Shown in pieces: positions 8,517 to 44,881 of a stretch of 64,000 bases of DNA. The DNA comes from Shewanella psychropiezotolerans (GTDB taxonomy: Bacteria; Pseudomonadota; Gammaproteobacteria; Enterobacterales; Shewanellaceae). Location of the stretch: positions 744,001 through 808,000 of the forward strand of contig NZ_CP041614.1 in NCBI RefSeq assembly GCF_007197555.1. The letters run 5' to 3'. A model generated the notes under the pieces. It was given only the letters and a program-made list of their open reading frames with translations. It was not told where the DNA came from and did no database searches. A program made the translations under genes and the position numbers. The stretch's first letter is position 1, and each line of letters begins with the position of its first letter.

Positions 8517-8985
8517 GGTTGCTGTCGCAAACAGAGATCGGGCCGTTATAAATTGAGGGGGCGGACTTCCTCAGACACAACTAGGCCGCTAAAGAATAAA
8601 ATTGTTCCCATGGTGTCATAATTTCAGTAGTGTCCATTTGCCCCGCTTAATCATGGACCAAAGTTCAACGCCTGCTAGTGTCGACTCAGCCCCTTCCCAA
8701 GATTTCCAACTTAGACATTGATGCATTTTCCCCTTCACTTTTCGATGGCTTTGTTGAAAAACGCTTGTGCCGCTGGCTCATCACGGGTCTCACTCAAATA
8801 AAATCAATAATAGTGCCGTATTTGTCCACGGCTCGATAATAGTAAACCCACCTACCTTTAACTTTTATGTAGGTTTCGTCCATTCGCCACGAGCCAGATA
8901 CTCGACGCTTTCTCTTCCTGAATATAGCTTCGAGTTGTGGCGTATATTTGATAACCCAGCGGTTCAGGGTTGAGTGGTAAAAAGG
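8517..8985 (-). mobile_element. IS6-family relic with internal 163-bp deletion
   Basis: This is a decayed copy of the intact element at 12543-13366. It starts with a damaged terminal repeat (GGTTGCTGTCGCAAA, one inserted base) and aligns with the intact copy through the transposase C-terminus. It then lacks exactly the segment lying between the two GATGGCTTT repeats found at 12771 and 12934 of the intact copy. A further single-A loss in an A-run breaks frame again near 8806. Homology resumes through the DETYIKVKG catalytic segment and stops at about 8985, so the transposase N-terminus and the other end are missing. The start of an unrelated small ORF (ATG at 8503) appears to have been interrupted by the insertion. 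Confidence 0.8.
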
Positions 8986-9040
8986 CCCCCGTTCGTAATA
9001 CATGTAACCAGTTGTCACTTTGAAATATGCTGGGGATAAT

Positions 9041-9091
9041 GTCTTAAAAATCAACAGTTATATGAGCTGTAGAAAATTTGATTTTTAAGAC
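9041..9091. repeat. 13-bp perfect inverted repeat, possible terminator
   Basis: GTCTTAAAAATCA (9041-9053) and its exact complement (9079-9091) enclose a 25-base loop that itself pairs weakly (ACAG/CTGT). A run GTGTTTTTT follows on the plus strand. It may be a terminator for plus-strand transcription or a small mobile-element end. It lies in the gene-free stretch 8986-9262, where I see nothing else. Confidence 0.4.
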
Positions 9092-9262
9092 GTGTTTTTT
9101 GAGATAAAGAAATCCAATGTTTCTGGGAGTCTTCATCTTATATTTGTAAGCCTCTAAAATGTTCGTTTTTTTGAGACGGTACCTTAATTCGCTATTTCTG
9201 AAAATAGTGAAGTGATACCTTATTACATGCATTACGAATCTACGCCATATAGCCCAATTTTT

Positions 9263-24717: not shown

Positions 24718-26981
24718 GTGTAAAGCAGACGCTCTGGCAGCTTTTGGATAATTACAATATTGAGATTCCAATAATTCAACGGGATTACGCCCAAGGCCGA
24801 ACTGATGCCAAAGTCACACAAATTAGAATAGATTTTGTGCAAAATTTGCATGCAATGGTCAGTAATAGTGGCCTTAGTCAAGATTTGGATTTTATTTATG
24901 GCTCAGTGAAGAACGATACACTTGTCCTATTGGATGGTCAGCAGCGTTTGACAACCTTGTTTTTGCTCCATTGGTATGTCGCTGCAGGTACAGGGGCTAT
25001 GAGTGAAGCCAGAAATAAATTAATGAAGTTTCGCTATGAAACCCGAGTTAGTTCAAGGGAATTCGTCGAGTCATTACTAGACTTTAGTGAAGGTCTGGTT
25101 GTGGCTGGCACTGATGAAGACCTTTCGAAAAAGATCATAGATGCACACTGGTTCTTTTCTGTGTGGCGCAATGATCCTACAGTGCAGTCAATGTTAACTA
25201 TGCTGGATGAGATTCACCGTGTATTCAGGTGTAATCTGCTTGAAGGTCGAGGATTATGGGAAAAGTTGGTGTGTAACGATAGACCACCTGTAACTTTCCA
25301 TTTCTTAAATATGCAGGAATTTTCCTTGACTGATGAGCTCTACATCAAAATGAATGCTAGAGGGCGCCCACTGACAGAGTTTGAGAACTTCAAAGCATGG
25401 TTGCAAAGTTATGTTGATAAATCTGATGATATTAAAATTTCAGATTCATTTTGGTCCTCAATGGATAAAGAGTGGACAGATGTATTTTGGCGGCTTCGCG
25501 ATAAGGGCGAGTATGAAGTTGATGATTTATTTCTACGTTGCTTTAAAAGTATAGCGCTGATAAACGTTGCAAAAACTTTAAATACATCTTCGAAACAACT
25601 GGACTTGAAGGATGACCAGTTAGTCGCTGCATTTCGTGATAATACCTACGTACCGACTCAGGTTTACAATGACAATAAGTGCTTTATTGAGGGTACCCTT
25701 AACGCTCTCTCTGTATTACTAAGTTTGCTCCATCAGTTACAAGCGTCAGTGACTGGCACTATCGGTGCAGAGTTATGGGGGCAATGCAAAGGTGTTTTTG
25801 AAGGTGTTCTGAGAGATAAGGGTTACTTAGAACAGGCTCGTTTTTGTGCCCTTTTTGTTTATGTGTCAGGTATTAAAAAGACCGGTCCATGGAATGAAGA
25901 TGAATTGCTGGAACTGGCCGATTGGTTGGGTGTTGCATTAAGAATGATCAATAACACTGCTTTTGATATATCGGTCAATTATGTTCGAGCTGTTCATGCC
26001 CTGGTCGGTATGATGGATTTGATAGGTGGTGTCGTGATGAATAACTTGGCTGAGATAGAAGCCAAAGATATTCGCTATTTTAATGAGACGCAGCGTGATG
26101 AAGAGATCCTAAAGGCTAGGTTGGTCGTCGGTGACCCAAGTTGGCGGTCGTTACTTAGAAGCTATGAAAGTCATGAGTATTTTTATGGGCAGATTGGTTT
26201 TTTATTAGAAGGCTCTCGTAGCACTGATTCAGATAATTACTGCCAAAGTAAATTTGTGAGTCTGGCAAATAAAGCATCTGTACTGTTTTCTAATTCTTTG
26301 ATAGAAACTGAGGATTTTTTATTGCAAAGAGCTTTATTATCCATTGGAGACTACCTTATTCCTTCGGGAAGTAATTTTAGCTTTTGCAAAAACACTAAGG
26401 TTAGCGCTCGCTATAGGTATGAAAATTGGCGTCGTGTATTTAACGATAAAGAGCGTAGAACGGTATTATTTCAGCTTTTAGGGTACTTAGAAGAGGGGAA
26501 AGAAAAGGAAGGCCTAGAGTTAGTTATTGCTAATGCGAGTTGCCCTGACTGGCGTCAATTATTTATTCAGTTTCCACAGGCTATTTCATATTGTAAGCAG
26601 CGACAAATAAGATTTGATAATGATGAGCATGATGAAATATACCTTTTGAATGGTCTCAGAATGTCGGGTAGGCATAAGGGTTTAAGAACATTTGTACTCT
26701 ATCAGGAAGTTAAAGGTTCTGACTGTTCTGACATTGTAGCGCTGAAAGAAATCATGCAGTCGTATTATGAAGTAAGTGGAGAAGGTGAAGTTCCTGGGGT
26801 TTTGTTTACCCCTTGGCAAGGAGGAGTTCTACAGGTTGATTACATCGAGGAAGATTTCTTATTGTCCTTATACGATCTTGATAATAAAGAGCAAGAATTG
26901 CAAATTAAGGAATGTAAGCAGATTGATGCTCTTAAACTATTGATTTCTAAAATAAGGGCAATGGAAGCAACTGAAGACTAG
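24714..26981 (+). CDS. DUF262 protein without HNH domain, 755 aa
   Basis: Second member of a two-gene DUF262 module. The N-terminus carries IPIIQRDYAQGR near residue 20 and LLDGQQRLTTLFLLHW near 73, the hallmark DUF262 active-site motifs; ELYIKMNARGRPLTEFENFKA near 210 is another conserved block. No DUF1524 HNH motif is found in the long C-terminal part, which is helical and rich in Trp and charged residues, so this subunit probably supplies nucleotide-dependent sensing while its partner cuts. It starts inside the stop codon of the upstream gene (ATGA). The pair is divergent from RADAR and flanked by palindrome copies B and C. Confidence 0.82.
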   Translation: MSVKQTLWQLLDNYNIEIPIIQRDYAQGRTDAKVTQIRIDFVQNLHAMVSNSGLSQDLDFIYGSVKNDTLVLLDGQQRLTTLFLLHWYVAAGTGAMSEARNKLMKFRYETRVSSREFVESLLDFSEGLVVAGTDEDLSKKIIDAHWFFSVWRNDPTVQSMLTMLDEIHRVFRCNLLEGRGLWEKLVCNDRPPVTFHFLNMQEFSLTDELYIKMNARGRPLTEFENFKAWLQSYVDKSDDIKISDSFWSSMDKEWTDVFWRLRDKGEYEVDDLFLRCFKSIALINVAKTLNTSSKQLDLKDDQLVAAFRDNTYVPTQVYNDNKCFIEGTLNALSVLLSLLHQLQASVTGTIGAELWGQCKGVFEGVLRDKGYLEQARFCALFVYVSGIKKTGPWNEDELLELADWLGVALRMINNTAFDISVNYVRAVHALVGMMDLIGGVVMNNLAEIEAKDIRYFNETQRDEEILKARLVVGDPSWRSLLRSYESHEYFYGQIGFLLEGSRSTDSDNYCQSKFVSLANKASVLFSNSLIETEDFLLQRALLSIGDYLIPSGSNFSFCKNTKVSARYRYENWRRVFNDKERRTVLFQLLGYLEEGKEKEGLELVIANASCPDWRQLFIQFPQAISYCKQRQIRFDNDEHDEIYLLNGLRMSGRHKGLRTFVLYQEVKGSDCSDIVALKEIMQSYYEVSGEGEVPGVLFTPWQGGVLQVDYIEEDFLLSLYDLDNKEQELQIKECKQIDALKLLISKIRAMEATED

Positions 26982-28873: not shown

Positions 28874-29901
28874 CTAATGAGGCGAATCGGTCTTTGGGGG
28901 CGGTAATGTGGCAGCGTCCACCTGCACTGCTGAACAAGCTACAGGTGCTTGAATGCCCGTTGCAATTATCATCAACTCAAGATCGCAATCAAGCTCAGGA
29001 ACGATAGTTAATCCTATAATCACCAATGCGTTTGGATCTAACTGCTGATGCAAGGTTGCACCAATACTATTATATTGGCTGAGTTCAATATCTTCAGTCG
29101 CCATAACACTGACAATCGCCCCTTTGCATGACTCAGGTCAACCTCTTCTAGCAAAGGATTTTTCAGCGCATTGTTGATGGTAAGTTGTAAATCCTCTCCC
29201 TTTACTTGCTTTGCAACTCCCATAGCCGCACGGCCTTGATGACTTACAACAGCAATGAAGTCATTCAAGTCTATATTAATTATCCCTGATTGACTGATGG
29301 TCGTTGTCAGCCCGAGCAATACATCTTGCAGAATACGGTTACTTTCAAAGAAGGCGTTAACGAGGGTTATTTTCTTGTCTAATGTTTCAGCTAACTTGTC
29401 GTTTGGCAGTACTATTACGGCATTGGCATGCTGCATTAATTGTTCAACGCCAGTGTTTGCCAGCTGATTTCTTTGATGCCCTTCAAAGCAGAAAGGGGTG
29501 GTGACGACTGCGACTAAAGGTTTATTCAATTCTGCAGCTACAGAGGCTATAAAGGGAATGGCTCCAGTGCCTGTACCACCACCCATACCACCAGTGATAA
29601 ATATGATGTCGGCTAAGTCTATTAGCTCTTTGAGCTGTACTTCAGATTATTGTGCAGCTTCATGACCTTTTTTAGGGTTAGCACCTGCTCCTAAACCTTT
29701 AGTCGCTTCTAAGCCGATCTGCAAACGAGTAGTACATTTTGAGGCTGCCAATGATTGAGCATCAGTATTGACGGCAATCAGTTGTACGTTGTCACTTAAA
29801 GGGGACTGACTGAGCTGATTGATGGTATTGCATCCACAGCCCCCCACTCCGAAAACGGCAATGCGAGGTGATTGGTTGTTTTGTGTGAGTAGGTCAAACA
29901 T
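28874..29901 (-). pseudogene. Island-borne FtsZ paralogue, interrupted
   Basis: FtsZ is the tubulin-like GTPase of the division ring. The GTP-binding motifs are clear: FGVGGCGCNTINQL near the N-terminus and the tubulin signature GGMGGGTGTGAIP after about 100 residues; GANPKKGHEAAQ also matches FtsZ. The reading is broken by an in-frame TAA at 29647-29649, where FtsZ proteins have a Glu-rich helix, and by a one-base loss in the run CCCC at 29119-29122, after which MATEDIELSQYN resumes the family sequence. The total is about 340 residues, shorter than chromosomal FtsZ, and it lacks the conserved C-terminal FtsA/ZipA-binding peptide. It is an extra, diverged copy, perhaps once used to perturb or replace host division. 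Confidence 0.8.
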
Positions 29902-30863: not shown

Positions 30864-32159
30864 CTACTTTGTGGCAAACAGTTCGCCGTCTAGCCAGTCC
30901 CCGATTATGTCGATCAAAGCTTCATGCCCTCCGGACAGTGTCAACCTCATGAGGTTAATTGGGAGTGCTGTTAACTCGATGTCATTGCCACCCAAAGCCG
31001 ACGAAACCCGCCAAACTGTGGGCTTGCGATTCATGGCGACGGGGTATGTCAGCGAGACCCTCTGGCAGCCGAGAACATGACCAGCGGTTAGCACCTGATA
31101 AGTATCCGATGCCTTTGGTCGTGAGCCTAGACGTTTGTACTTAGCGTCAGTGATAGCGACCCGAAAACCGTCGGTGTCATGAAAAACTACATCGGGTGTC
31201 GTCTCCAGCTTGCTCCCATCCCCTTTAATTAACTGGCCAAATTTTATCCCATCTTTGTTAACTCGTATGCCACGCTGACTAGCAGCCCGATGACACAACC
31301 AGTAAACATAGTTTTCGTAGATAGTATCAGAGTTCCACAAAAAACCTGACAGTGCATGTTCGCCGCTGGTGTGATGAACACCAGATCCTTCCAATAGCAA
31401 CAATCCTACCACACGAGCAGCCTCAAGCCCTTGATGTTGTGGACCAAGGGAAATCCGCTGTGCTTCGAGCAGTTGAGGAGGCCTTCTACCAACGTGAGCT
31501 AGGCCTGCCACAACTTCGCGCAAAGCTCGTGCTCGGCTGGGTGCTTTTACGGTTGCCGCAAGACATTCTGCGGACCAGCGTAGTAGTCGGGCCAATGCAG
31601 TGTCATCAGTTAGGAGATCTGTTACATACGGAAGTACCCAAGGGCGTGCGACCCACTCCCCCAAACGTGAAGTATCTAGTCTTCCTCGGAGAGTGTAGCC
31701 AGCTCTTTGCTCGGCTACATAGCCGCGCGGCAGGCCACGTGCAGCCCCTTTGCCGTAGGATGAGAGGAACATCTCGGCGAGCAGGTCGGGTATGGACAGT
31801 GATTCCAATTGATGCGCTGCAGTTAGGTTTTCGTCCAAATGACTGCCCTCAACAACCGTTAGAATTCGCCATAAAACCGTCTGCCAACTGCCAACTGTAG
31901 CGCTTAGAAATTTCGGCGAGATCTCTATGTCCGTATTGCCAATGCGAACGACACCTGTAACGGCCTCTGCCCTCAACTTCAAGAGCCCGTTGCCGATATC
32001 CTCCACCCGGATAGGATCGCGTGAAAGACCTAGAGTCTTGCGCCAGCGCTTGTTCGTCTCTGCTAGTGTACGGAGATCAATATCTTTAGCTTGGTGAACA
32101 ATCGGTTCACCATATTCTTGGAGTTTGATGCGAACCGGGGCTGTTAGCGTGTAAGCCAC
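30864..32159 (-). CDS. mcrC: McrC-like nuclease subunit of an McrBC-type restriction complex
   Basis: McrC binds the McrB AAA+ hexamer, stimulates its GTPase and supplies the PD-(D/E)xK nuclease. The 431-residue length fits the family. The nuclease site is visible as TPDVVF at residues 321-326 and ITDAKYK at 336-342; a preceding SDTIYENYVYWL (277-288) is the conserved McrC block, and the N-terminal half is the McrB-binding region. The start overlaps the mcrB stop by 16 bases, indicating coupled translation. It is the last gene of a five-gene minus-strand operon. Base composition is richer in GC than the flanking island DNA. Confidence 0.88.
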   Translation of the reverse strand: MAYTLTAPVRIKLQEYGEPIVHQAKDIDLRTLAETNKRWRKTLGLSRDPIRVEDIGNGLLKLRAEAVTGVVRIGNTDIEISPKFLSATVGSWQTVLWRILTVVEGSHLDENLTAAHQLESLSIPDLLAEMFLSSYGKGAARGLPRGYVAEQRAGYTLRGRLDTSRLGEWVARPWVLPYVTDLLTDDTALARLLRWSAECLAATVKAPSRARALREVVAGLAHVGRRPPQLLEAQRISLGPQHQGLEAARVVGLLLLEGSGVHHTSGEHALSGFLWNSDTIYENYVYWLCHRAASQRGIRVNKDGIKFGQLIKGDGSKLETTPDVVFHDTDGFRVAITDAKYKRLGSRPKASDTYQVLTAGHVLGCQRVSLTYPVAMNRKPTVWRVSSALGGNDIELTALPINLMRLTLSGGHEALIDIIGDWLDGELFATK

Positions 32160-33325
32160 CTAAGGGACCTCTGAATTACGTCAATGTTAAGCTCACTAAG
32201 ACGGACGGGGGACAGAACCCTAGTCGTGACAGTGCTGCTCATTGAGGTTCGCAGCTTCCAAGCGTAATCGCCGAGTGATGGGGCTGTGTCGACGCGCAAT
32301 AGGTCGATCAATTGCTCTGGGCGGCCGGAGTACCTATCCTCCAACTGAGGGAATAGGACGTTATCCCAGATCGCAGCAAGGCTGCGCCAAGTATCATTTT
32401 CTTCAACGGTCGGTGTGGCCTGTCCTTCGACAGTTCGATTACTTACCACGGATGTTAGAAGGCCGTGACCAAGCTCAAATTCGGGACCAAAGTCGGAGGC
32501 GATGGCAATGTTTAGTCTGTCGAGCAGTAGATAACCGGTCACCAACGGACTGAGGGTTTCCCAATTGTCTTCACTTGGTTTAGGAATGGTTGTCTTGTCC
32601 AGGCCCCAATTCTGGGCTAGGACATCGAGGTTGGGACGCATTTCTATCCGATCGAATCGGCGTGCAAGGGCGCTGTCAATCGGTACAGCTGCTCGATCGA
32701 CGCTGTTCATCGTTGATACTATGTAGATATTTCTCGGAAATCTGAAATTCTCGGGGATATCAGATTTCTTGCCGCCGGGCCGGAAGATCTTCTCGCTCCG
32801 ACCGTCTTTGTAGGTCAGCTGTCGGAGGGGTAAGGGGAGAGGTATACGACCATCATCGCGGTAGTCGAAGTCTAGGAAAGTCATAAACTCACCAAAAATG
32901 CGAGCCGCGTTACCACGGTTTATCTCGTCAATAAAAATCACTACCGACTTGTATTCCGACGAGGGATCATCCAGTTCAAGTGCGGCGTCGAGAAAGACAC
33001 CAGCCCATGGTTGGAGACGCGTTCCTTCGGTGGTAATATCGGGCCTCAAGCCTAGCACAAAGTCCTCGTATCCGTAGGACTGATGGAACGTTGTCCATAC
33101 TACCTTAACGGGCTGGGGGATAGTGATCTCCTGATTCGGCCGACTAAGCGGGCTCGCCGCGTCGTTAGGGTCGAGGAGAATGCCGCGTTGGCTTTCCGGC
33201 GGTGTGTCTAGTGCCTGGAATAGCTCACTGATTAACCTCGTCTTGCCAGTCGCAGGGGGGCCGTAGAGCAGAACGTTCCGGCTGGCACTCCATGAGGCCA
33301 TAATGTCGTTGAGTTTATCAGCCAT
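32144..33325 (-). CDS. mcrB: McrB-like AAA+ GTPase, short form without DNA-binding domain
   Basis: The 393-residue protein is essentially just the AAA+ GTPase: Walker A GPPATGKT at residues 22-29, Walker B VVIFIDEINRGN at 128-139, and the McrB signature TMNSVDRA at 205-212, followed by the LARRF arginine-finger segment. E. coli McrB and LlaJI.R1 carry an additional N-terminal DNA-recognition domain of 150-200 residues; here only about 15 residues precede the AAA+ fold. The preceding gene in the operon, only 8 bases upstream, encodes a 185-residue protein that may supply this function separately. With McrC it should form a nucleotide-driven nuclease. Confidence 0.88.
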   Translation of the reverse strand: MADKLNDIMASWSASRNVLLYGPPATGKTRLISELFQALDTPPESQRGILLDPNDAASPLSRPNQEITIPQPVKVVWTTFHQSYGYEDFVLGLRPDITTEGTRLQPWAGVFLDAALELDDPSSEYKSVVIFIDEINRGNAARIFGEFMTFLDFDYRDDGRIPLPLPLRQLTYKDGRSEKIFRPGGKKSDIPENFRFPRNIYIVSTMNSVDRAAVPIDSALARRFDRIEMRPNLDVLAQNWGLDKTTIPKPSEDNWETLSPLVTGYLLLDRLNIAIASDFGPEFELGHGLLTSVVSNRTVEGQATPTVEENDTWRSLAAIWDNVLFPQLEDRYSGRPEQLIDLLRVDTAPSLGDYAWKLRTSMSSTVTTRVLSPVRLSELNIDVIQRSLRWLTR

Positions 33326-33333
33326 GTCTCACC

Positions 33334-33891
33334 TCAGTTTGCATGAATCACACCGCCTACATCATTGCCGAAAAGGTCCCACATCGGGTCGGTTTCAACC
33401 ATGCAGGTAGGACGCGGCCCCTTCGTGAAACCGGCGTAGTAATCACCTTCGATGGTCTTGGCGATATAGATGCGTAATCCGCCTTCGGGAAAATACGGGC
33501 GTGCGTCTTCCGTGCTGCATACGCCGTCCGGCGCCGTCGGGAAGCCTCTGGTTGAGGTCCACGAAGGATGGCGCTGAGATTGGGGTTGCTGGCGGTTCTG
33601 GCGGGCGATGCGCATGCGGCCGCCAGCCTTCCGCTGGAACTCAATGGGGCCGGAGATGCCGGGTTGGCCGATGACGTGAGCTTGGATTGTTATGACGGGG
33701 AGCGAGTTCACGTCAGTCGCGGCCACGCCGAGGAAGTCAAGGGTAGCGGGAACTATCGAACTTGGTATTTCGATGTAGAGGGATCCGCCGCCGCCTTGGA
33801 TTCGATAGTATCGCTCAATATTGTAGAACTCGCCCGGCTGAACATTACGCCACCAGATACGGTTGATGTTTAGTTTATTTGTCATATTCAA
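33334..33891 (-). CDS. Unknown 185-aa protein, candidate recognition subunit of the McrBC operon
   Basis: I recognise no domain with certainty. The protein begins with an aromatic, Arg-rich segment (NINRIWWRNVQPGEFYNIERYY), has a beta-rich centre ending at a basic stretch (RKAGGRMRIARQNRQQ near residue 86), and a C-terminal part with YIAKTIEGDYYAGF. No signal peptide or membrane helix is present. It overlaps the upstream methyltransferase by 4 bases and is 8 bases from mcrB, so all are co-translated. Given the truncated McrB, it is a candidate for the missing DNA-recognition domain; a role as a separate nuclease or inhibitor is also possible. Confidence 0.7.
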   Translation of the reverse strand: MNMTNKLNINRIWWRNVQPGEFYNIERYYRIQGGGGSLYIEIPSSIVPATLDFLGVAATDVNSLPVITIQAHVIGQPGISGPIEFQRKAGGRMRIARQNRQQPQSQRHPSWTSTRGFPTAPDGVCSTEDARPYFPEGGLRIYIAKTIEGDYYAGFTKGPRPTCMVETDPMWDLFGNDVGGVIHAN

Positions 33892-34910
33892 AAGGTCTCT
33901 ATGTGGTAAAGGCGCTCTAGCACTGTTCCTTCCTTTGTTCGGTTGTTACTGCGGAACCGAGTGTAGGGTTGCTCGTGTATTGTAACTTTTCCAAAGTCGC
34001 TCAAAATGGAGAGCAGCTCATCTTCGTGAACTTGGCCGTCTTGGCTATAGGAGATAAACACATGTGGCACATTAAGTTGCTCGAGTGTTTCGCGAAATGC
34101 TTTGCCGGCGTTGCGTCGGTAGCAAAAGTCAGAGGCCTGTTCTTTCCACGGACGGAGTCCCCCATCACCAGCTGCTAATGGCTCGTCTTCCCGAGCGAGT
34201 GTTTCCAAGATGTGGTAGTTCCCAGCATACTGCCTTTTGGTATATGGTGGATCGAGGTAGACTGCATCGACGCTGAGAGCCGATGCATGTTTTTCAACCG
34301 GCCCATGAAGAACTGTGTGGTGCCCTTGTGTTTGCTCGAACTCAATAGGGTCGAATGTAATCGGCCGAAGTGCCGATCGAGAGAGCTCTCGCAGGAAGTA
34401 CCCATAGGTACCGCTGATATTCGCTACCTTATTAGTGGCTAGAATCAGATGATGGAGTAGCACGCTATGCTCGATCTCACTAATGTCTCCAGATGAGGCC
34501 AACTCACGGATGCCGTCTCTAACACCGTCTATGTGTGCTGCGTTGGTTGCAGAGAAGTAGAGACGTGGCGCACGCCCGTTCGCAGGACTTCCGCCCTCGC
34601 CAAACTCCTTAAAAAAGTATCCATCTACGGGCGCAGCCGAGCACATCCAATCCAGAGCTTTGTCGTAGCCACCGAGTGCCTTGAAAGCTGGCGGCTGTTT
34701 GGCTAACAGTCGAACCCGCGCATGAATAACTGGGAAGGTCAGAGCATCGGCTGCAGTCACTGAGTAGCCAGCACGGGCCAAGGCCAATGAGACTGAGGCT
34801 GTACCACACATAGGGTCAGCGATCGTTGAGCCTGACGGAAGGACACGTCCAATCTCGCCGACAATCCAGTCGGTTAGTCGCGTTTTGTTACCGAGGTAGC
34901 GGAACGACAT
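33888..34910 (-). CDS. D12-class DNA adenine N6-methyltransferase
   Basis: Transfers methyl from S-adenosylmethionine to adenine N6 in DNA. Motifs of the D12/Dam class are present in the alpha order: FRYLGNKTRL at residues 3-12, the SAM-binding ADPMCGTASVSLAL at 31-44, and catalytic DPPYTKRQYAGNYHILE at 220-236. The 340 residues fit a solitary-domain enzyme. It lies between the EcoRI-type methyltransferase and the unknown protein, overlapping the latter's start by ATGA. Two different adenine methyltransferases in one restriction operon suggest an asymmetric recognition site with each enzyme protecting one strand, as in LlaJI-like systems; this is inference. Confidence 0.88.
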   Translation of the reverse strand: MSFRYLGNKTRLTDWIVGEIGRVLPSGSTIADPMCGTASVSLALARAGYSVTAADALTFPVIHARVRLLAKQPPAFKALGGYDKALDWMCSAAPVDGYFFKEFGEGGSPANGRAPRLYFSATNAAHIDGVRDGIRELASSGDISEIEHSVLLHHLILATNKVANISGTYGYFLRELSRSALRPITFDPIEFEQTQGHHTVLHGPVEKHASALSVDAVYLDPPYTKRQYAGNYHILETLAREDEPLAAGDGGLRPWKEQASDFCYRRNAGKAFRETLEQLNVPHVFISYSQDGQVHEDELLSILSDFGKVTIHEQPYTRFRSNNRTKEGTVLERLYHIETF

Positions 34911-34943
34911 AAATACCTCTCTGCTGCATTACTATTCTGGTGC

Positions 34944-35990
34944 TCATGAATGCTTCTTCCTAATGATTATGCGTTCGTACATCCGGCGGTACGTGCCGTC
35001 GCCGTTTGGCAGATAAAAACGTGGTCCACCTTGCTGAAAGGTGCCTTTTTCCGCTATCTGAGACATCGGCCGACTTAGAGCCTTACTGGAGCCAAGGATC
35101 TCGAACTGATCTGGGTTGAACTTATCGAGGAAGGTGATCGGAACTCCCATGGGGCCGTCATAATCCAAAGGGATGTCCTTCGTCTTACTGACCTCAATCG
35201 CGTCGAAGTTTGCATACTTCGGGTTTGCGTCTGGAGAGTAAGTCTTCTGGAGGTTCAGGTCCACGTGCCGACTGGGATAATCGAGGTTGGTGAACCAACG
35301 GATACCCTTTACCCTGACGTATTTGTTGCCGTACTCGTCGACCCTAGAGCCAGCGGCCATTAGCGGATAGTCGTCTGGCACTCGAAATTCTCGGTCTCCA
35401 CTGCGTATGCTTGGGCCATACCATATCTGGCTATTCTTGATGAGCGGAAAAATATTCGTATAGGTCACAGCATTCATGTTCCCGATGATTATGAACTTCT
35501 TCTCATACTCGACGAGCTGAGCTACGTATTCCTTGAAGAGCGAGAACGGCGGGTTGGTCACCACTATATCGGCCTGCTTGAGCAATGCGACACTTTCGTC
35601 GCTGCGGAAGTCTCCGTCTTCTACGAGCTGCTTGATGCCGTTCTCTTGATCACTTGGGATGCTATCGCGGTTATTATTACCTGTATACTCCAAGTAGACA
35701 GCCTTGTCAGAGTCATTCTGTCCGAAGTGCTCTGCGTCCTGACTTTGATAGCATGTGGTGATTAACTTCTTCAAACCAAGCTTCTCGAAATTCTCAGAAA
35801 AGTAGCGAAAGAAGTTACTGGCTCGAGGATCGTCACAGTTGCAGTAGACAACTTTACCCTCGAAGTGGCTCGTGTAATGCCTTAGCTCAAGCTCAATATC
35901 ACTGAGGGAGGTGTAGAACTCATCCTTCCTCGCTTGCCTAGCTTGTTGGAAATCCTTGTTTCTGGTGGGAATAGCTGTGTTTTTCGTCAT
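34944..35990 (-). CDS. EcoRI-family adenine-specific DNA methyltransferase
   Basis: This enzyme belongs to the M.EcoRI-like group of N6-adenine methyltransferases. The catalytic motif DIVVTNPPFSLFKEYV lies at residues 141-156, and VVYCNCDDPRASNFFRYF at 47-64 is the family's characteristic N-terminal block. The start at 35990 is chosen over the in-frame ATG at 36014 because GGAG stands 8 bases upstream, giving 348 residues. It is the first gene of the restriction operon, 33 bases ahead of the second methyltransferase, so protection would be made before the nuclease, whose genes come last. Confidence 0.88.
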   Translation of the reverse strand: MTKNTAIPTRNKDFQQARQARKDEFYTSLSDIELELRHYTSHFEGKVVYCNCDDPRASNFFRYFSENFEKLGLKKLITTCYQSQDAEHFGQNDSDKAVYLEYTGNNNRDSIPSDQENGIKQLVEDGDFRSDESVALLKQADIVVTNPPFSLFKEYVAQLVEYEKKFIIIGNMNAVTYTNIFPLIKNSQIWYGPSIRSGDREFRVPDDYPLMAAGSRVDEYGNKYVRVKGIRWFTNLDYPSRHVDLNLQKTYSPDANPKYANFDAIEVSKTKDIPLDYDGPMGVPITFLDKFNPDQFEILGSSKALSRPMSQIAEKGTFQQGGPRFYLPNGDGTYRRMYERIIIRKKHS

Positions 35991-36725
35991 CTGTAACTCC
36001 TGAGATCGGGACATGATAGCGCTAATTCAAGAATCGTCAACAGCTCAGTTGGATCTGTCCAATTCCAATAATCTGAAATACTGAATTAATAGAGCTTTCT
36101 AGAAGAGTAAAGTTTGCTAGAGCGATAGCCTGCTGATGTTGGAGTGGATATGGGGCACTCTGAACAAATGCTAGCCTTACCATCACGAACTTGATGATGA
36201 GTTTTCTTGAGCTCTTCGACCAAATTACTTGTAGACGTAATCTCTGCATCGATACCAAGCAAAACTTGGTTATTGAAAAAGATGGCGCTTAATTAATCCA
36301 CTCTGTGGCTTGTAGTCGACGAGTAGTAAGGTAAATAAGCTCAAAAACTAAGTAAAATATTGATTAGCGATTTAAGTTGATCGCAACAGCGAAACCAATA
36401 TTGGGGCCGAAACCTCTTGGTACGTAAGTTGCCGACCGTACATTACGCAATTTAAAAAGGCCTTTCCTGACAACTTCAAAGTTTACAAAATGGCCTGTAA
36501 CTAGAAGTCTTTGTTGAAGGTAAGGTACTTACCGTATTCCTTAATTCAATCAATGCGCCTTTAACTAAAGTACACTGGAAAGGTCAATCAAAGCTTGAAG
36601 GTATCGAATCGGGTTTGGAAAGCCTTAAAGATGAAGTTCGCCAACTTGACCTAAAATCCGTTGCTATAGTCGTTTTTATGGCCTGTACAAAAGCTAACAA
36701 ACGACTATGGCGTCAGTAACTTATT
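35991..36725. other. Gap with possible gene fragments
   Basis: No intact gene. The minus strand holds a roughly 65-codon open stretch at about 36090-36290 with a C-x2-C pair and no credible start. The plus strand holds a 71-codon open stretch ending in TAA at about 36720 that encodes KGQSKLEGIESGLESLKDEV and similar charged helices. Both look like fragments of lost genes. Confidence 0.4.
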
Positions 36726-37003: not shown

Positions 37004-37852
37004 TTATCCCCCGTTTATAAATTTGGTAAATAAGCCGTCTGTAATCTTTCTTAGTCTTTTATCATCAAGTTGTCTTTCAATAATTGACTTGAGATCCGTA
37101 GCAGCGATTTGCTGACTTAATTTCTCAGCACAGAAGGAAAAAACATCGATAGAAGGGTCATCTGAGACTGATTTAGCCGCCTTGGAAAGGTGTACAACCA
37201 CAAGCAAAATCAAATTGATTAGGAATTCACTGTGAAACGGGGTTCTACTTTTTTTAAGTAATTGAAGTACTATAAACCAGCCATTCTCAGATTGACTCAC
37301 TGCAACTTCCAAAACTTGGTCATATAAATATGGCAACGAATTCTCCGTTGCAATAATGATTTCTAGATATGACGGTAGGTCTTCTTTGGGGAGCTGCTGG
37401 CACAGCTCGACAGTTAGCGCTGCAGTGTTAGCGAACGGGATATCTTCCTTTTGAAAAAGAAAATCAAATTGTTTATCAATAGATAGGTACTGGGTCTTTG
37501 TGGCAAAGGACTGAGCGAGTGTTGAGGTTACGCTTTCATCGAAAATTTTGTGTAGTCTAGAAATGAAATCTGGTTGGTCTGCTAGGATAGGCTCAGTGAT
37601 TGTGACCAGTTTAAGTAGCTGTGTTAGGCTAGAAATCATTTCCTTAATGGCAAAGGTCTCTTCTGTCGTGATTGATAGCTCACCATTTGTGTATAGACCT
37701 GCCGCAAGGTAGTTACCAGAGTGATCTTTTATCCAACTTTTGGCATAGAAGAGTGTTTCTTGGGTAATTAGGAGCTGAACCCTAGCTGCTTTAAGTTGAA
37801 GACCAAGCTTCGAAATGGCTAATAAAGTTAATCCGTAAAAATCGGTGAGCAC
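37004..37852 (-). CDS. PIN-like RNase domain, C-terminal part of frameshifted TPR/PIN protein
   Basis: This frame continues the 779-residue frame upstream. Reading back past its nominal GTG start gives SKLAKPRVVLTDFYGLTLLA, the first strand and acidic residue of a PIN domain. Further matches are LLITQETLFYAKSWI and, about 140 residues later, TQYLSIDKQFDFLF with the late acidic residue. PIN domains are metal-dependent RNases. The two frames overlap by 25 bases; a single indel at the GGGG run 37880-37883 (CCCC on the coding strand) would join them into one protein of about 1,050 residues. Whether the shift is real, programmed or a sequencing error cannot be decided here. Confidence 0.6.
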   Translation of the reverse strand: MLTDFYGLTLLAISKLGLQLKAARVQLLITQETLFYAKSWIKDHSGNYLAAGLYTNGELSITTEETFAIKEMISSLTQLLKLVTITEPILADQPDFISRLHKIFDESVTSTLAQSFATKTQYLSIDKQFDFLFQKEDIPFANTAALTVELCQQLPKEDLPSYLEIIIATENSLPYLYDQVLEVAVSQSENGWFIVLQLLKKSRTPFHSEFLINLILLVVVHLSKAAKSVSDDPSIDVFSFCAEKLSQQIAATDLKSIIERQLDDKRLRKITDGLFTKFINGG

Positions 37853-40167
37853 AACACGCGGCTTCGCGAGTTTTGATTCGGGGTACTGTTCTTAGCGAAG
37901 TTTGGAGATAGGATTGCAGCAACAGCTCCCGACCATTTAGAGTGATTAGCTTGATGTGCCCCCCTAACTTGAATCGGATGATTGTTGTCAGAGAGAAGCT
38001 GTAATGATGACTCACTTCGTCGCTTATTGCTCATCGCGATTGTCTTTTTAAGGAACTCATTCAATTGCTTTGGATCTTCAGGGATCGTCAGCATTGCGAA
38101 GGAGTCAGTTCCGTCATTGAGTTCCTGCCTGAGTTTGTTTGCGATCTGTAAAGCCCCCTCAAAAGGGGAAACTATTTCTACGATGCGGTACTCAATTAGC
38201 TGGTTCTCTATTGTATCGCCCTTCTTTCCCTCTAAAAGTTGCTTCCCTAAGGGACTAGTTGGCAGGATGAAGTCAGGATGTTGGTTTTTAACAGCTGTTA
38301 CGAGTTTGTAATTAGTAGTCCCGTTAGATTCCAATAAATAGCAGTTTTGATGATCACCTACAGTAGTGGCATAAGTTGGTTGAAAACTACCTTGATCGTG
38401 AAGGAAGGCTGAGTTTACCCAGTTACTGTAATGAAGAGCCATTTCATTAGGGCTAACTACAAATAGATCCAAAGCGATCCGTTCTGCACGGCTGAAATCG
38501 CCGTATCTCAGACATGTAGCTAGCAATTCCCAAGAATAAGGAGATGGCCGAATGAAGCACTCGTCAGGAATAGTTTCAAAGATGGAGCGTAATTCAGCAG
38601 ATGAAACATGTTGAGATCGGCCTGCAAATTTTATTAAGTAGATCCAAGCGTTTATATGGTTATCTGAGCTCTCAATGGCAAGATAGGCGTGTTTAAGGAC
38701 ATTTTTGTCTTCTCCAATCGCCTCAAAATAACGGGCCCTACAAGAATGATATAGTGCTTGATGCTCGTCTGGATGGGTTAGAGCTAAGGTCGTATTCAAA
38801 GTGGAGAGCTGTTTTGTTTTTATCAGGGAGTCTAGATACATGCCCTTTGGTGGAGATAGCCAGGCACCTTGAATTTGAAATTGCGCTAAGATCTTAGGTA
38901 TATACCTATGCAGTTCTGCTTCATCTAACAAGTTACAAAGATGGTATGAGTGATGGAATGGATACGCCGTTAAATCATAAGGTGTATCGTTTAGCATCTT
39001 GTCTAAATAATCGATAAGCTGCCTCTGAGTTGTTGGCTCAATCGTAACGAGCTTTGCTAATAAGGAGACACGTACCAGCTTTTCCATCCTAGCTAATTCC
39101 GGCGCCAAATCTAATTTAAGAGCACGCCGCAGCATTATAGCTGAGTTTGTTGTGAACAGAGTTGGGAAGTGTTTGCTGCTTAATACTCCTTCGATAAAGT
39201 CGTCATCTTGAAACGCTACCGGAGACGGTGTTTTTTCTTTATTCAAATATGACTGTAAATTTAGCTTAAGCACAGTGAAGCTATCATCTATTTTATTGAT
39301 AAAGGGACACAGAGCTGTAGGTAGATCACTGATTTCATTTTGCGTGTAGGTAGCGAATGAAGCACAGGCACCAATAGTCATTCGATCTGACTGGCCTTGA
39401 TTGAGCAAACTGGCCCCCTCTACTACTAGCCTATCTACCTCGACCTTATCTGGATATGTAAGAAGGTAATAATGCCGATTAGTGAATCTAGGGAAAAGAA
39501 TGGCGCCTTGGCAAAAAAAGGTGAGAGCCTTATTGGAAAGGTTGGGCTCGTAGTGTTCTAGAGACGGATAGACCTTTGCTAGAAGATCGTGTGCTTGCAC
39601 TCTTAGGGCACCGATAATCAATCCTTTTAGTGCTGGCAAGTCTAAGTTTAACTCATGAGCTTCCCAAAATTGGCTTAGCTGTTCTGTACTGGCTAAGTTC
39701 TTATTAAAAATATACGTGCTGTAGCTTACAGGTGAGTGCTTTGTTTGTAGGTATCGCTTAGCGGCCATTGCTTCTTGAGAGTCTTTGAATTCATACAGCA
39801 TTAGCGCTGCAGTGATCACATCATTAGGTACCTGATGGGTCGAAGCCAAGCTTTGCTTCAGGGATTGATAGATTGCTCGGCTTTGTTCTTCATCACCAAC
39901 AAGATCATTAAAGATGCGAAGTGCACTGATCAACATTTGAGCATTACTATCTTTGCCCCCCATAGACTCAATGAGTTCAATGTCAGACTTAGCTTTGTCT
40001 AAGTCGTCATTAGCAATGGCGTTAAGGATCGCCTGAATCGGTCTTCGTAATAGGTCTGGTGCAATGCTTTGAATGTACTTATTTAATACATTGTCGCCTT
40101 GGCCATCATGGGACTGATTAACCGCTGCAGAGTTAAAATTTTGAGGATCTAGGGGAGTGGTGGTCAT
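37828..40167 (-). CDS. TPR-like helical repeat protein with Gre-like domain, N-terminal part
   Basis: The 779-residue frame begins with a disordered Asn/Gln-rich leader containing QSHDGQGDNV, followed by about 550 residues of degenerate TPR-like helical pairs (for example ALYHSCRARYFEAIGEDKNV). Near residues 610-667 is a segment, SPLGKQLLEGKKGDTIE with EYRIVEI shortly after, that closely resembles the C-terminal FKBP-like domain of GreA/GreB, the factors that enter the RNA polymerase secondary channel. The frame ends shortly after the point where a PIN domain begins in another frame. It starts 5 bases after the 110-residue gene, which carries a similar GTGDNVAGDKI motif, so the two products probably interact. 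No known system is recognised. Confidence 0.65.
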   Translation of the reverse strand: MTTTPLDPQNFNSAAVNQSHDGQGDNVLNKYIQSIAPDLLRRPIQAILNAIANDDLDKAKSDIELIESMGGKDSNAQMLISALRIFNDLVGDEEQSRAIYQSLKQSLASTHQVPNDVITAALMLYEFKDSQEAMAAKRYLQTKHSPVSYSTYIFNKNLASTEQLSQFWEAHELNLDLPALKGLIIGALRVQAHDLLAKVYPSLEHYEPNLSNKALTFFCQGAILFPRFTNRHYYLLTYPDKVEVDRLVVEGASLLNQGQSDRMTIGACASFATYTQNEISDLPTALCPFINKIDDSFTVLKLNLQSYLNKEKTPSPVAFQDDDFIEGVLSSKHFPTLFTTNSAIMLRRALKLDLAPELARMEKLVRVSLLAKLVTIEPTTQRQLIDYLDKMLNDTPYDLTAYPFHHSYHLCNLLDEAELHRYIPKILAQFQIQGAWLSPPKGMYLDSLIKTKQLSTLNTTLALTHPDEHQALYHSCRARYFEAIGEDKNVLKHAYLAIESSDNHINAWIYLIKFAGRSQHVSSAELRSIFETIPDECFIRPSPYSWELLATCLRYGDFSRAERIALDLFVVSPNEMALHYSNWVNSAFLHDQGSFQPTYATTVGDHQNCYLLESNGTTNYKLVTAVKNQHPDFILPTSPLGKQLLEGKKGDTIENQLIEYRIVEIVSPFEGALQIANKLRQELNDGTDSFAMLTIPEDPKQLNEFLKKTIAMSNKRRSESSLQLLSDNNHPIQVRGAHQANHSKWSGAVAAILSPNFAKNSTPNQNSRSRVLCSPIFTD

Positions 40168-40172
40168 TGTTA

Positions 40173-40505
40173 TTACCCGGTCACGATTTTATCACCAGCA
40201 ACATTGTCGCCAGTACCAGTGTGGTGTTGGTTTATTATCGTCGAACTGGTGATGTTACTGGCTGAGAGCATCTGTAGAAAACTCGGATCAGCACCAATGG
40301 CACGTTCAATTCTTTTTGGGGACCATTCGTCATCGATCTCTAGCTCTTGTGCTTTCGAAGCTATCTGCTGCAAGATTTCGTCAGAGGGAGGGTTATCGAA
40401 GTGCTTCTTGAGAATATCGACAGTGACCGTAGTGGAAATACACAGCGCTTTGAAAATAACATTCGAGACGAGCCCGATAGCAATGCCAGTTGAGATGGGT
40501 TCCAT
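40173..40505 (-). CDS. Small partner of TPR/PIN protein, 110 aa with GDNVAGDKI tail
   Basis: The protein has an N-terminal hydrophobic helix (ISTGIAIGLVSNVIFKALC), a charged helical middle (about 30-85), and a C-terminal tail NQHHTGTGDNVAGDKIVTG. Short tails of the G.GDNVAGDKI type are frequent, in my knowledge, on bacterial conflict proteins and adaptors, and the TPR/PIN protein downstream has a related GQGDNV in its leader. The genes are 5 bases apart, so they are co-translated. A role as an adaptor or membrane-linked sensor is inferred. GGAG lies about 8 bases before the ATG. Confidence 0.6.
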   Translation of the reverse strand: MEPISTGIAIGLVSNVIFKALCISTTVTVDILKKHFDNPPSDEILQQIASKAQELEIDDEWSPKRIERAIGADPSFLQMLSASNITSSTIINQHHTGTGDNVAGDKIVTG

Positions 40506-41558
40506 GGTGAACTCCTAAGTTATGGTACTTACAGATGCTGCCGCATTTAGCACAAAGAAGAGCAAGTTAACGACTGGCGCCATCGGTAACTGCCAGTGAT
40601 AACAGACTGTATGGTAACATAAAACCTCAAAGTAATTTCGTAGCGAAAGGGCAGAAGCAGGGCTTTAAAACTGCAAAGTTCTCTGTGATTTAACACTTGT
40701 TTCCTGCTGGACGCTTTTAATCTTTTGTCAAGAATATAAGCCACCGTAGACAACATTCTTCTTACCCTATGAATCTAGAGCACAAGCCTGAGATTATTCT
40801 CTATCCTATGGGTAACCCGAACGCCCCCTGATTTTTATGAACCATGTAGAGTAATTACTGATTTAAATATCACTCAAAATTAATAGTTACTTTCGAGTGA
40901 TTATTTGAACAATATTTCTTTTAAAAGGAATTATTTAGAGTGAATAGTTAAAGTAGAGCACAGGGGACAATACGCTTATTCAATAGTCTCTAAACTGATA
41001 TAGAGAAGCCAGTGCCTTTTAGTAAAAGTGACTTTTAAAAGAGGGTTCATAAAAGCCAAAAGTAAACGGTGCTAGTCCAGGGGACTACAAACCTAGGGCC
41101 AATCAATCAAAAAAGGCAAAAGCTATCACAAAACGCGGCTATGGTTGCAGTTAAACGTTCGGCGTCGAGAAGAGGCAACGAGAGGTTTAGGGGAGATCAA
41201 TCATATCGTTCAGGTTCAAATGAGGCTCTTGCCTGAGCAATCCAACAACAGGGATGTTGTCTTACAACGTGCGCGTGAGATCACTTCAATAGAGTGCCTT
41301 TCTCTGTGTAGAGCATTTTTAAACAGTTGGCAGCAACGCTCGAATCTCTTTGTAGGTAAACTTGCGAGAAAGGTTTTATTCATTAAAAATCTTTGCCCTA
41401 GGATAAGCTTTATGGTCTGCGCCACGACTTTGGAAAGTCTCTATGGCTTCGCAATCTTGAGATCTATCAGACCCTGTAGCAGATTCTAGGCACTTTTATC
41501 GACCCCCAGATTTTCTGTGTCCTGTTTCCCCCTGGAGCTATCCGTTACGATTAGCCCC
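40506..41558. other. 1-kb stretch without supported gene
   Basis: Open frames at 41145-41489 (plus) and 41216-41425 (minus) overlap each other, lack ribosome sites and show no family motif. The upstream half is very AT-rich and probably contains the promoter of the 110-residue gene. Nothing else is seen. Confidence 0.45.
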
Positions 41559-42422
41559 ATGAAAATGAAAACCTCCCTTGAACATCTGCCTGAGCAGAAA
41601 ATCCATGAGCTAAAACGTGCTGTGGCCACCATTCGTCAATTTGTTGAGCCGCAGATGATCATTCTGTTCGGCAGCTATGCCCGCGGCGACTGGGTCGAAG
41701 ATCTTGACCCCGATACCTTGCAGTTTCGCTATCAAAGTGACTTTGACTTGTTAGTGGTCATGGAGACTCGTCAACAAGCCAGTCATGTCGAACAAAATGA
41801 GCGTCTCAGTCAGGCGTTGATGAAACCCATTCAACGGACGCCCGTTAGCGTGATAGCCGAAGACCTTGCTTTCATCAATAGACGCATCAGTAAAAGTCAG
41901 TACTTCTATATCGACATTAAGCGTGAAGGCATTATGTTGTATGACACCGGCAACTTTACCATTGGTGAAGCCAAAGAGCTGACGGCACTAGAACGGTCTC
42001 TTCTGGCGCAGGAAGATTATGATTATTGGATGAAAAATGCGGATGAGTTTCTTATTACTTATTCATTTATGGTGAGCCAAAATTTTCTCAGTAATGCCGC
42101 TTTTTTACTACATCAAGTCACTGAAAAACTCTACAGTGCCATTCTACTCGTCTTTACTCGCTATAAACCCAGTGTTCATGATTTAAAAAAACTCGGCGGC
42201 CTAGTGGCTGGTATTGAACCGGAGTTTCTCACCGTGTTTCCGCAAGGGACCTAAGAGGAGCGCTGGCGCTTTAAATTGTTGCGAAAAGGCTATGTTGATG
42301 CGCGCTATAAACCCAGCTATGTTATCACCAAAGAAGAACTCGAATGGCTAGGCGAGCGGAATATCTGCAAGCGCTCACAGAATGTCTGCGTAAAGCCAAG
42401 ATCGCCAGTTATTTGGAGTAAC
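41559..42422 (+). pseudogene. MNT-HEPN fusion (nucleotidyltransferase plus HEPN), disrupted
   Basis: MNT-HEPN proteins combine a minimal nucleotidyltransferase, often an AMPylating antitoxin, with a HEPN RNase. The N-terminal half has the MNT signature ILFGSYARGDW and the metal-binding SDFDLLVV; the C-terminal half has HEPN-like helices, with RYKPSVHDLKKLG near residue 205. Translation stops at TAA 42252-42254, but the family sequence continues in the same frame as EERWRFKLLRKGYVDARYKP and then KEELEWLGER, after which a second lesion near 42358 shifts it to EYLQALTECLRKAKI and a stop at about 42422. Two independent lesions make real decay likely. It is the last cargo gene before the island's right end. 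Confidence 0.72.
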
Positions 42423-42684: not shown

Positions 42685-43764
42685 TTATTTATTATCTGAA
42701 AACTTATCATGAAGTTTATGAGGAAATAACTGAGTGTAAACTTGCCATAAAATGTTTAGGTTTTTATGGCCGGTGACTTGAGCAACCTCTTCAATAGAAT
42801 AACCTTTTTCAAATAGTCGGCTGGCTCCCTCTCTGCGCAAATCATGATAACGCAGATCGTTAATGCCCAGTTCGTTACGCACCCGTTGAAAACCTGCCGT
42901 GACAGATCTCGGGTTGTAGGGGAATATCAAATCATTGTGTTGAGTTTGGCGTTTAACAATGTCAAATGAACCAGCAAGCAAAGGCACAATCATATGATTA
43001 CCAGCTTTTTTTCTGGGGTCCTTTCTGTCACGCACTAAAACAGTTTTATGATCTTGATTTAAATCTTCCCAGCGTAATTTGCACACTTCACCGATCCGCA
43101 TGCAGGTCAAAATACTAAAGTCTAAGATATCGAGAAAAGGTATCCGAGTTTTCCCATTGGGTCTAAAGTCCATTCTTGCTTGAAGACCCTCTTTGAGTTT
43201 TTCGAGTTCATTCTTTGTCGGGCGGCGCGTTCGTTTCTGGCTTTTGCCTACTAAGCCCATTTCGATTAGAACGGGGACCGCATCGTCGAAAATTTGATAG
43301 TTAGCAAAAATATCCCAAACGGGTAACGCTTTTTTCATCACACTGCGCAGGTAGGCAATATCATGATAGATAGTTGCAGGCCCAGCACCTGCTGCGCGCC
43401 TCGTTTTACAATGTTCTATCAGATCACTGGTTTTTAGTGAGCCGCTTTTCACCTTATAGATGTCACAGTCCATCAGCATCTTAATGACATAGCGTTTCGT
43501 TCGCCCTGTTTTTCCCCATAAGTCATGATCTTCAAAGTACAAATTTAGCAGGGTCCCAAGGGGCACGACTTTGTGTGTGTTGAGTGCCCCATGATGTTCA
43601 ATGGCATCGCATCGAATTTTGCCCCAGGTACGCGCCACGTCTTTTTTACTGAATGTTTTAGACTCACGATGTATAATTTCGCCGGATTCTTTGACGCGCA
43701 CAGTACAGCGATAACTAAACTTGCCGCTTGCTTTTGTGCGTTTCTCTATTGTAAAAGATGCCAT
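42685..43764 (-). CDS. Tyrosine recombinase (integrase) at ssrA/dusA junction
   Basis: Site-specific integrase of the phage type. The catalytic set is visible (numbering from the 43764 start): Arg223 in [17 protein letters not shown] at 307-310, His333 in TGHKN, and Tyr343 in LWQVYTQLF, with an SAM-like core-binding domain at about 70-150. The start is uncertain; the frame is open with ATGs at 43797 and 43821. The gene is divergent from dusA, whose coding sequence begins about 100 bases away, a place where dusA-associated integrases insert; its 3' end abuts an ssrA fragment. Which of the two sites it serves is unclear. The sequence in front of it contains CAACGAAATT twice in tandem near 43824-43844. 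Confidence 0.88.
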
Positions 43765-43870
43765 ATCAGTGAATTTCGCTAAATCGTCCACCCCCATAAT
43801 GGGGCCCCTATGGGACACCATACAACGAAATTCAACGAAATTACAGGCTATTCAGAGCGACTCGGAACAC

Positions 43871-44881
43871 ATGACAGTATCAACTAAACCAGGCTGCAAG
43901 CCAGTTACAGCAATGAAACCGCTCAATCGCACCTTCTCCATCGCGCCCATGCTGGATTGGACGGATCGGCATTATCGTTACCTGGCGCGGATCATGTCTA
44001 CAGAACTCTTGTTATATACCGAGATGGTGACCACAGGTGCGATTATTCACGGTAAAGGGGATTATCTAGCGTATAACAGTGAAGAGAACCCATTAGCATT
44101 GCAGTTAGGTGGTTCAAACCCTCAGGATTTGGCCACTTGCGCTAAGCTGGCTGCAGAACGCGGTTATGATGAGATCAATTTAAATGTGGGTTGCCCTTCG
44201 GATCGGGTTCAAAGTGGTCGCTTCGGCGCTTGCCTTATGGCCGAGCCTAAAGTCGTCGCCGAGTGTGTCACCGCGATGAAGCAAGTCGTGGATATTCCTG
44301 TGACGGTTAAGACGCGTATAGGTATCGATGATCAGGACAGCTATGAGTTTCTGACTGAGTTTGTCGATACTGTCAGTGATGTGGGCTGTGATACTTTTAT
44401 TGTGCATGCCAGAAAGGCCTGGTTACAGGGATTAAGTCCTAAACAGAATCGTGAAATCCCGCCCTTAGATTACCAGCGTGTGTATCGGCTGAAGCAGGAT
44501 TATCCTAAGCTGCATATTTCCATCAACGGTGGGGTTAAAACACTCGATGAATGTCGGGAGCATCTGCTCCATATAGATGGAGTCATGGTGGGCCGTGAAG
44601 CATATCAAAACCCCTATATATTGGCCGAGGTCGATCAGCTACTTTGCGGTAGCAATAAACCTGTGTTGAGCCGAGATGCTGTTTTAGAGAAATTTATTCC
44701 TTATATAGAGAAACACCTTGTCGACGGTGGCAGGTTAAACCATATCACTCGCCATATGACAGGAATGTTTCAAGGAGAGCCAGGCTCCAGAGCCTGGAGA
44801 CGCTATATTAGTGAGAATGCTCATAAACAAGGGGCTGGAATCGAAGTGATTGAACAGGCTAGAAAAAAAATGGATTGCTAG
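43871..44881 (+). CDS. dusA: tRNA-dihydrouridine(20/20a) synthase DusA
   Basis: FMN-dependent reductase making dihydrouridine at positions 20/20a of tRNA. The signature runs through [16 protein letters not shown] near the start, [40 protein letters not shown] with the catalytic Cys, VKTRIGID, and INGGVKTL plus [12 protein letters not shown] for flavin phosphate binding, all in the order of DusA. The length of about 336 residues is normal. The start may be 43871 (MTVSTKPG) or 43913 (MKPLNRT); neither has a strong ribosome site, as expected if integration replaced the original upstream region. An intrinsic terminator follows the stop. Confidence 0.95.

Follow-up and report, generated by a model that had tools for sequence, protein, structure and literature searches.

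A split GapS6-type gene pair with matched tail and leader motifs in a defence island of Shewanella psychropiezotolerans

Which system is encoded by a small gene and a long, interrupted gene lying side by side on the chromosome of Shewanella psychropiezotolerans (RefSeq assembly GCF_007197555.1, contig NZ_CP041614.1), and how might its products communicate? The window analyzed here, that is the whole stretch of 64,000 nt from position 744,001 to 808,000 of the forward strand, provides the coordinates used throughout, and all GapS6-like open reading frames (ORFs) in it are located on the minus strand (Table 1). A preliminary description had pointed out a 110 amino acid (aa) protein with a hydrophobic helix and a GTGDNVAGDKI tail, 5 bases before a long TPR-like protein with GQGDNV in its leader, all of which is indeed present in the sequence: the helix is N-terminal, the C-terminal end of the small protein reads ...HHTGTGDNVAGDKIVTG, and its ORF stops 5 bases before the ATG of a 779-aa ORF. 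By sequence, the locus appears to be a divergent, split copy of the two-gene GapS6-type (TPR-GreAB-C-PIN) system, for which anti-phage protection is a prediction. On balance, we favour the view that a split GapS6-type copy resides in a Shewanella defence island and that intact systems of this type are receptor-effector pairs coupled by matched motifs.

The 110-aa protein matches the Pfam family PF20701 (HetE-N) with an E-value of 1.1e-13 and 51.8 bits, passing the cut-off of 25, as well as the NCBIfam model NF047935 (antiphage_GapS6a; E 4.5e-20, 71.9 bits, cut-off of 90 not reached). The 779-aa ORF covers positions 1-767 of NF047936 (antiphage_GapS6b; E 2.8e-110, 369.8 bits, cut-off of 850 not reached), and a 282-aa ORF in another frame continues this match at positions 776-987 of 1089 (E 6.2e-31, 107 bits, same cut-off). 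As these scores stay under the curated NCBIfam cut-offs, we label the locus GapS6-like rather than GapS6 in the strict sense. GapS6a and GapS6b are presumably named after the GAPS systems (Mahata et al. 2024). The available text of another study, by Kaur et al. 2021 (PMC8195603), presents a TPR-GreA/B-C-PIN core with variable effectors, including a domain common to fungal HetE proteins, and we equate this HetE-type effector with Pfam HetE-N through the name in common. A new, undescribed system was thus rejected on the basis of the PF20701 and NF047935/NF047936 matches and the available part of PMC8195603, and with it falls the earlier statement that no described system shows this combination. 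The GapS6-type system is already catalogued, and we do not claim that its motif pairing is unpublished: no paper on GapS6 or BabyBass motif pairing was among the matches listed, which comprise titles and abstract openings and cover the subscription literature thinly.

The two large ORFs overlap and match consecutive parts of the GapS6b profile, and we therefore regard them as one large gene split between 37828 and about 37895. A single partner ORF of more than 1000 aa is found in 24 of the 29 loci with at least 3.6 kb of downstream sequence, which marks the window GapS6b as a split copy; the five loci lacking such an ORF are L027, which has a different partner, L032, L010, L044 and the window. 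Intact homologues, for which the preliminary description had advised a search, exist, and the PIN-like domain that it saw in another frame does not represent a design of its own. A separate PIN gene was rejected, as the 282-aa ORF is the second part of GapS6b by profile match, and so was a programmed frameshift as a family rule in view of the single long ORFs; the GTG listed as start of the 282-aa ORF is unlikely to be its true start. One might still argue that the split between the Gre-like and PIN parts of this copy is functional, by programmed frameshift or second start, and not damage, given that both frames retain their domains, with the PIN acids present in the second one, and that split genes also occur in Pseudomonas sp. 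FeN3W and in one E. coli record. We regard this as improbable, since besides the prevalence of the long ORF, L032, which is split, shows 94% identity in the compared N-terminal part to its unsplit relative L052, and the split seen in E. coli is situated earlier in the gene, so that the splits look independent. Furthermore, about 24 residues at the end of L008 lie beyond the last aligned residue of the window copy. The window GapS6b seems to lack some 20 aa at its C-terminus. Unless the change of frame results from a sequencing error, this copy is unlikely to be active.

Much of the domain architecture that had been read from the letters alone withstands comparison with profiles. The TPR-like part falls within the GapS6b match over positions 1-767, and in a PDB profile search with 21 relatives a designed TPR protein is matched at E 2.7e-18, the Pfam TPR match of the window ORF itself being weak (E 0.065). 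For the Gre-like string, residues 613-665 of the 779-aa ORF, PF01272 stays under its cut-off (E 0.0016). The profile check that had been suggested for it, an hhalign comparison of 26 sequences (window and 25 relatives) with 29 PF01272 domains from 14 genomes, gives a probability of 91.1 and an E-value of 1e-6 against GreA/B-C, with four TPR segments and one PIN segment as controls all at 0.1. Counting against a Gre-C-like assignment, none of 21 relatives matches PF01272 at E 0.1, and the PDB profile search lists no Gre chain. Directly after the Gre-like region of GapS6b we note a well conserved R...ND-G-D-F segment (L008 residues 678-688). The 282-aa ORF matches PF20698 ('PIN-TPR-GreABC') over residues 3-126 with an E-value of 9e-4 and 19.9 bits, not reaching the cut-off of 27.8, and a six-frame PF20698 search of the same genome listed nothing at E 0.001. 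Among the 21 relatives, 15 match PF20698 at E 0.1 (best 2e-21), and L008 does so past the cut-off (E 2.7e-12). Two acidic residues, D772 and D894 of L008, are invariant in all 25 relatives with frames of more than 1000 aa and are kept in the window as D4 and D126 of the 282-aa ORF. An NTPase domain is absent among the Pfam matches of the window large protein and the 21 relatives scanned.

What ties the two proteins together is probably a motif shared by the tail of GapS6a and the leader of GapS6b, as sequence comparison suggests and as had been proposed for the GDNVAGDKI tag. For 39 GapS6a-partner pairs, reduced to 31 non-redundant ones by removing receptors more than 70% identical, we scored the C-terminal 40 residues of GapS6a against the N-terminal 65 of the partner frame. 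The motif is shared in 30 of the 31 pairs with scores of 48-83, compared to a mean of 21.2 (standard deviation 4.4, maximum 43) for 1550 shuffles of their own leaders; the window pair scores 51, above chance. In the exception, L013, which scores 16, the GapS6a tail has an unrelated sequence, apparently through a frameshift. Cognate pairs reach a mean of 58.2 versus 43.8 for non-cognate ones, with none of 20000 permutations as high as the cognate mean; the tail against partner residues 100-165, a control, gave 7606 of 20000. The motif class agrees in 28 of the 30 readable pairs (20 GDN, 4 GDA, 2 GHN and 2 GxNI). All four invariant columns in an alignment of 67 GapS6a homologues are in the tail, as are both invariant columns of a 77-row alignment with more motif classes. 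In a predicted model of the L007 GapS6a, five helices make up residues 3-77, and the predicted local distance difference test (pLDDT) value is below 50 in the tail (residues 84-110), consistent with disorder.

Could this tag pair be a functionless leftover of gene fission or recent duplication? The archetype described in the available text of PMC8195603 has effector and core fused in one protein, and a linker common to both could have been duplicated as that gene came apart. Where tail and leader of the 30 pairs have the same motif residue, however, the codon is also identical in 161 of 334 cases, near the 152.3 expected from usage; the likeness is therefore kept at protein level and does not stem from recent DNA copying, which led us to reject recent duplication as the source of the tag. 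As the tail also holds the sole invariant columns of the 67 homologues and is class-matched to the leader, we consider a leftover highly improbable.

The arrangement is reminiscent of bacterial amyloid signalling, in which motifs are found at the N-termini of NOD-like receptors (NLRs) and at the C-termini of small helical BELL domains (PMC7889193, available text); the NLR-associated amyloid motifs BASS1-10 with BELL domains go back to Dyrka et al. 2020, as cited in the accessible parts of PMC7889193 and PMC8086366. Because of this resemblance in motif layout we favour a coupling of tail and leader that would be homotypic and perhaps amyloid-type, by analogy to NLR-associated signalling. A relative of GapS6a has been solved as PDB 9H9V, 'BabyBass soluble domain' (released 2025-10-08), and this name suggests that others already hold the idea of amyloid coupling. 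Its chains comprise 82-85 residues and lack the tail, unlike the window GapS6a, and the window 110-aa protein alone finds no 9H9V-type match by sequence.

Tag and executor are also found in other company. In L023, a GapS6a-like gene (23.6 bits, cut-off of 25 not reached) is followed by the gene of an nSTAND1 NTPase that bears a matching motif. The L027 partner (922 aa, 6327-9095, plus strand) is motif-paired with GapS6a and has no NCBIfam match and no Pfam match over the cut-off, possibly representing a further receptor family. The L025 partner (312 aa, 552-1487, minus strand) carries the motif, likewise with no NCBIfam match and no Pfam match over the cut-off; its only hit is a weak one to a phage sheath initiator (E 0.08). 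The L035 partner is a fragment. Six genome loci match the tag region alone when the tag is used as one pattern: it is located at the N-terminus of a NACHT protein (L058) and of an NB-ARC protein (L059), and after the domain of a TIR protein (L060) and of an EAD11 protein (L061), the remaining two being a pentapeptide-repeat protein and a 134-residue open frame devoid of family matches.

At genus level, 8 of 129 genomes have a HetE-N match at E <= 0.001 (7 of them passing the cut-off), at order level 7 of 394 (5 passing the cut-off), at class level 2 of 369 and at phylum level 2 of 398, with the own genome included each time. Three further genera chosen for one positive member gave 1 of 24, 1 of 11 and 1 of 35 genomes. 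A motif-bearing partner adjoins HetE-N in six of the eight genus genomes (G000, G029, G036, G037, G140 and G141); none was seen in G152, which has a partial match, and G021, whose match is under the cut-off and contains a stop. Thirteen plasmid records have GapS6a and 11 have GapS6b, all of the latter also having GapS6a. The two GapS6a-only records are from Buttiauxella, with a different large partner, and from Photobacterium, ending inside a Buttiauxella-like partner. On a Photobacterium plasmid, the GapS6 pair is found directly after gmtX. The pair is also native to E. coli, where a match over at least 80% of it is present in 22 of 5426 complete genomes (isolates).

Several observations weigh against a matched GapS6-type pair. 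No window protein reaches the curated NCBIfam cut-offs for GapS6a or GapS6b, a shortfall seen likewise in the unsplit relatives L029 (750.7 bits) and L063 (249.3 bits) against the GapS6b cut-off of 850. The PIN region compares weakly with 21 ordinary PIN domains (hhalign probability 4.2, E 0.0097; other segments 0.1-0.2). Two pairs, L028 and L035, are mismatched in class, and within the GDN class pair-specific matching is not significant (22 pairs; z 1.32, 2217 of 20000). The GapS6a domain, compared as a control with the leader, gives a z of 2.09 (524 of 20000), and the motif classes follow few clades, so that there may have been only about four independent class changes and the agreement is modest. 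In the same-genus genome G048, a broken GapS6b-like gene occurs and no HetE-N match. Finally, the tails bear no clear likeness to the four published amyloid peptides compared: membership in BASS3 or sigma finds no support by simple peptide comparison (mean z over 30 tails of -0.24 and 0.82), the mean z is 1.55 against the archaeal and 1.11 against a non-aggregating peptide, and the score of the latter falls within the range of the aggregating ones. This lack of likeness would suit a simple docking peptide, or a rung of a solenoid, by which both proteins would be kept in a permanent complex and no amyloid templating would take place. Such a role is rather unlikely in our view, as the tag occurs at the N-termini of NACHT and NB-ARC proteins and also in a TIR protein, and NLR N-termini are the site of bacterial amyloid signalling motifs according to the available text of PMC7889193.

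The family identity, the adjacency of the genes in the examined loci, the sharing and class matching of motifs and the conservation of the PIN acids are direct observations, and from these we infer how an intact system may work. GapS6b, composed of a TPR superhelix, a Gre-C-like domain and a PIN-like RNase, would sense infection and pass the signal on by way of the motif at its N-terminus, which matches the one at the C-terminus of GapS6a, itself a small helical domain. Tail and leader motifs would co-assemble by homotypic, probably amyloid-type contact, gathering GapS6a and GapS6b, and this assembly would trigger a cell-lethal activity, with GapS6a as the presumed killer partner. RNA polymerase or RNA may be the target that is sensed or attacked, the polymerase idea originating with Kaur et al. 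(PMC8195603, available text).

GapS6a might instead be an oligomerising adaptor and not the killer, the motif clustering GapS6b so that PIN becomes an active RNase, whose target would perhaps be the RNA of an RNA polymerase that has stalled and is bound by the Gre-like domain. The invariance of the PIN acids in all 25 long-frame relatives fits such a role, as do the depositors' name 'soluble domain' for 9H9V and the maximal N-terminal hydropathy of the 67 GapS6a homologues, which at a median of 1.07 is not clearly membrane-spanning. The N-terminal helix of the window GapS6a, however, is the most hydrophobic of all 67 (1.99), and the available text of PMC8195603 places the HetE-type domain among the effectors, and we consider the adaptor role somewhat less likely than not. 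Returning to a lethal GapS6a coupled by matched motifs, we tentatively picture GapS6 as an amyloid-type signalosome in which a TPR-Gre-PIN sensor replaces the NLR, possibly watching RNA polymerase, with HetE-N (BabyBass) as exchangeable executor and the cognate tag setting the partner. If so, the same family of executors would be paired not only with TPR-Gre-PIN but also with STAND and with two other large partners that are still unnamed. If the tags act as amyloid-type seeds, motif-templated anti-phage signalling would extend past NLRs to a possible transcription monitor, and partner specificity could be readable from a tag of about 15 residues.

The genomic surroundings support a defence role of the pair, and the defence context suspected at the outset is borne out by McrBC-like, RADAR and GmrSD-type genes in the window. 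The pair is flanked by an McrBC-like locus with two DNA methylases, of the D12 and EcoRI-methylase class, which together look like a methylase-McrBC type restriction locus, and by a nucleotidyltransferase-HEPN gene, which may be truncated since its HEPN match spans only positions 2-65 of 117. The tyrosine integrase beside dusA lies nearby; the island is probably carried by a dusA-type integrative element, and no exact repeat of at least 16 bases was found in the window.

Table 1. Features of the GapS6-like locus and its surroundings (window positions).
Feature	Position	Strand	Basis
GapS6a-like small protein, 110 aa, HetE-N domain and C-terminal motif tail	40173..40505	-	PF20701, NF047935
GapS6a tail motif GTGDNVAGDKI, residues 97-107	40185..40217	-	sequence; invariant alignment columns
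GapS6b-like large protein (779-aa first part) with leader motif and TPR and Gre-C-like regions	37828..40167	-	NF047936
Leader motif HDGQGDNVLNKY, residues 20-31 of 779-aa ORF, counterpart of GapS6a tail	40075..40110	-	pair test
GreA/GreB C-domain-like region, residues 613-665 of 779-aa ORF	38173..38331	-	PF01272 sub-threshold; hhalign
GapS6b-like large protein, second part, other frame, 282 aa: PIN-like domain and C-terminal region	37004..37852	-	NF047936, PF20698
PIN-like domain	37475..37846	-	PF20698 match, residues 3-126 of 282-aa ORF
GapS6b frame-change stretch (lesion or sequencing error)	37828..37895	-	overlapping frames, consecutive profile positions; single-ORF relatives
RADAR pair, RdrB and RdrA	16909-22060	-	PADLOC E 1.8e-222 (RdrB), E 1.9e-176 (RdrA)
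Two adjacent genes with GmrSD N-terminal domains, four-base overlap	22735-26981	+	PF03235
ORF with partial tubulin/FtsZ GTPase match	29038-29586	-	PF00091, positions 118-189 of 190
McrB-like AAA protein, McrC-like protein, small protein without family matches, two DNA methylases	30864-36014	-	PF10117 (McrC-like)
Nucleotidyltransferase (MNT-like) and HEPN domains in one 245-aa ORF	41517-42254	+	
Tyrosine integrase divergent from adjoining dusA	42685-44881		

Compared with GapS6 as modelled by NF047935 and NF047936, the window copy agrees in gene order, spacing, domain order and motif positions as well as in the two consecutive stretches of the 1089-position profile, and differs by its scores under the cut-offs, a GapS6b in two frames and an apparently short C-terminus. 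With the TPR-GreAB-C-PIN system, as far as it is laid out in the available text of PMC8195603, it shares the core of TPR, GreA/B-C-like and PIN domains and the HetE-type effector, found here via PF20701 as a separate adjacent gene. The archetype has its effector fused to the core and is mostly stand-alone, whereas in the window effector and core are separate genes that would be joined by the matched tag in place of fusion. From BASS, judged by the same partial sources, it is set apart by a large TPR-Gre-PIN partner in which no NTPase was detected and by tails with no clear match to the published BASS3 peptide. It resembles BASS in its adjacent genes, a small helical protein with a C-terminal motif and a large partner with an N-terminal motif, the matching of effector C-terminus and receptor N-terminus extending to 30 of the 31 pairs and, by class, to 28 of the 30 readable ones, and one related pair (L023) has an nSTAND1 partner.

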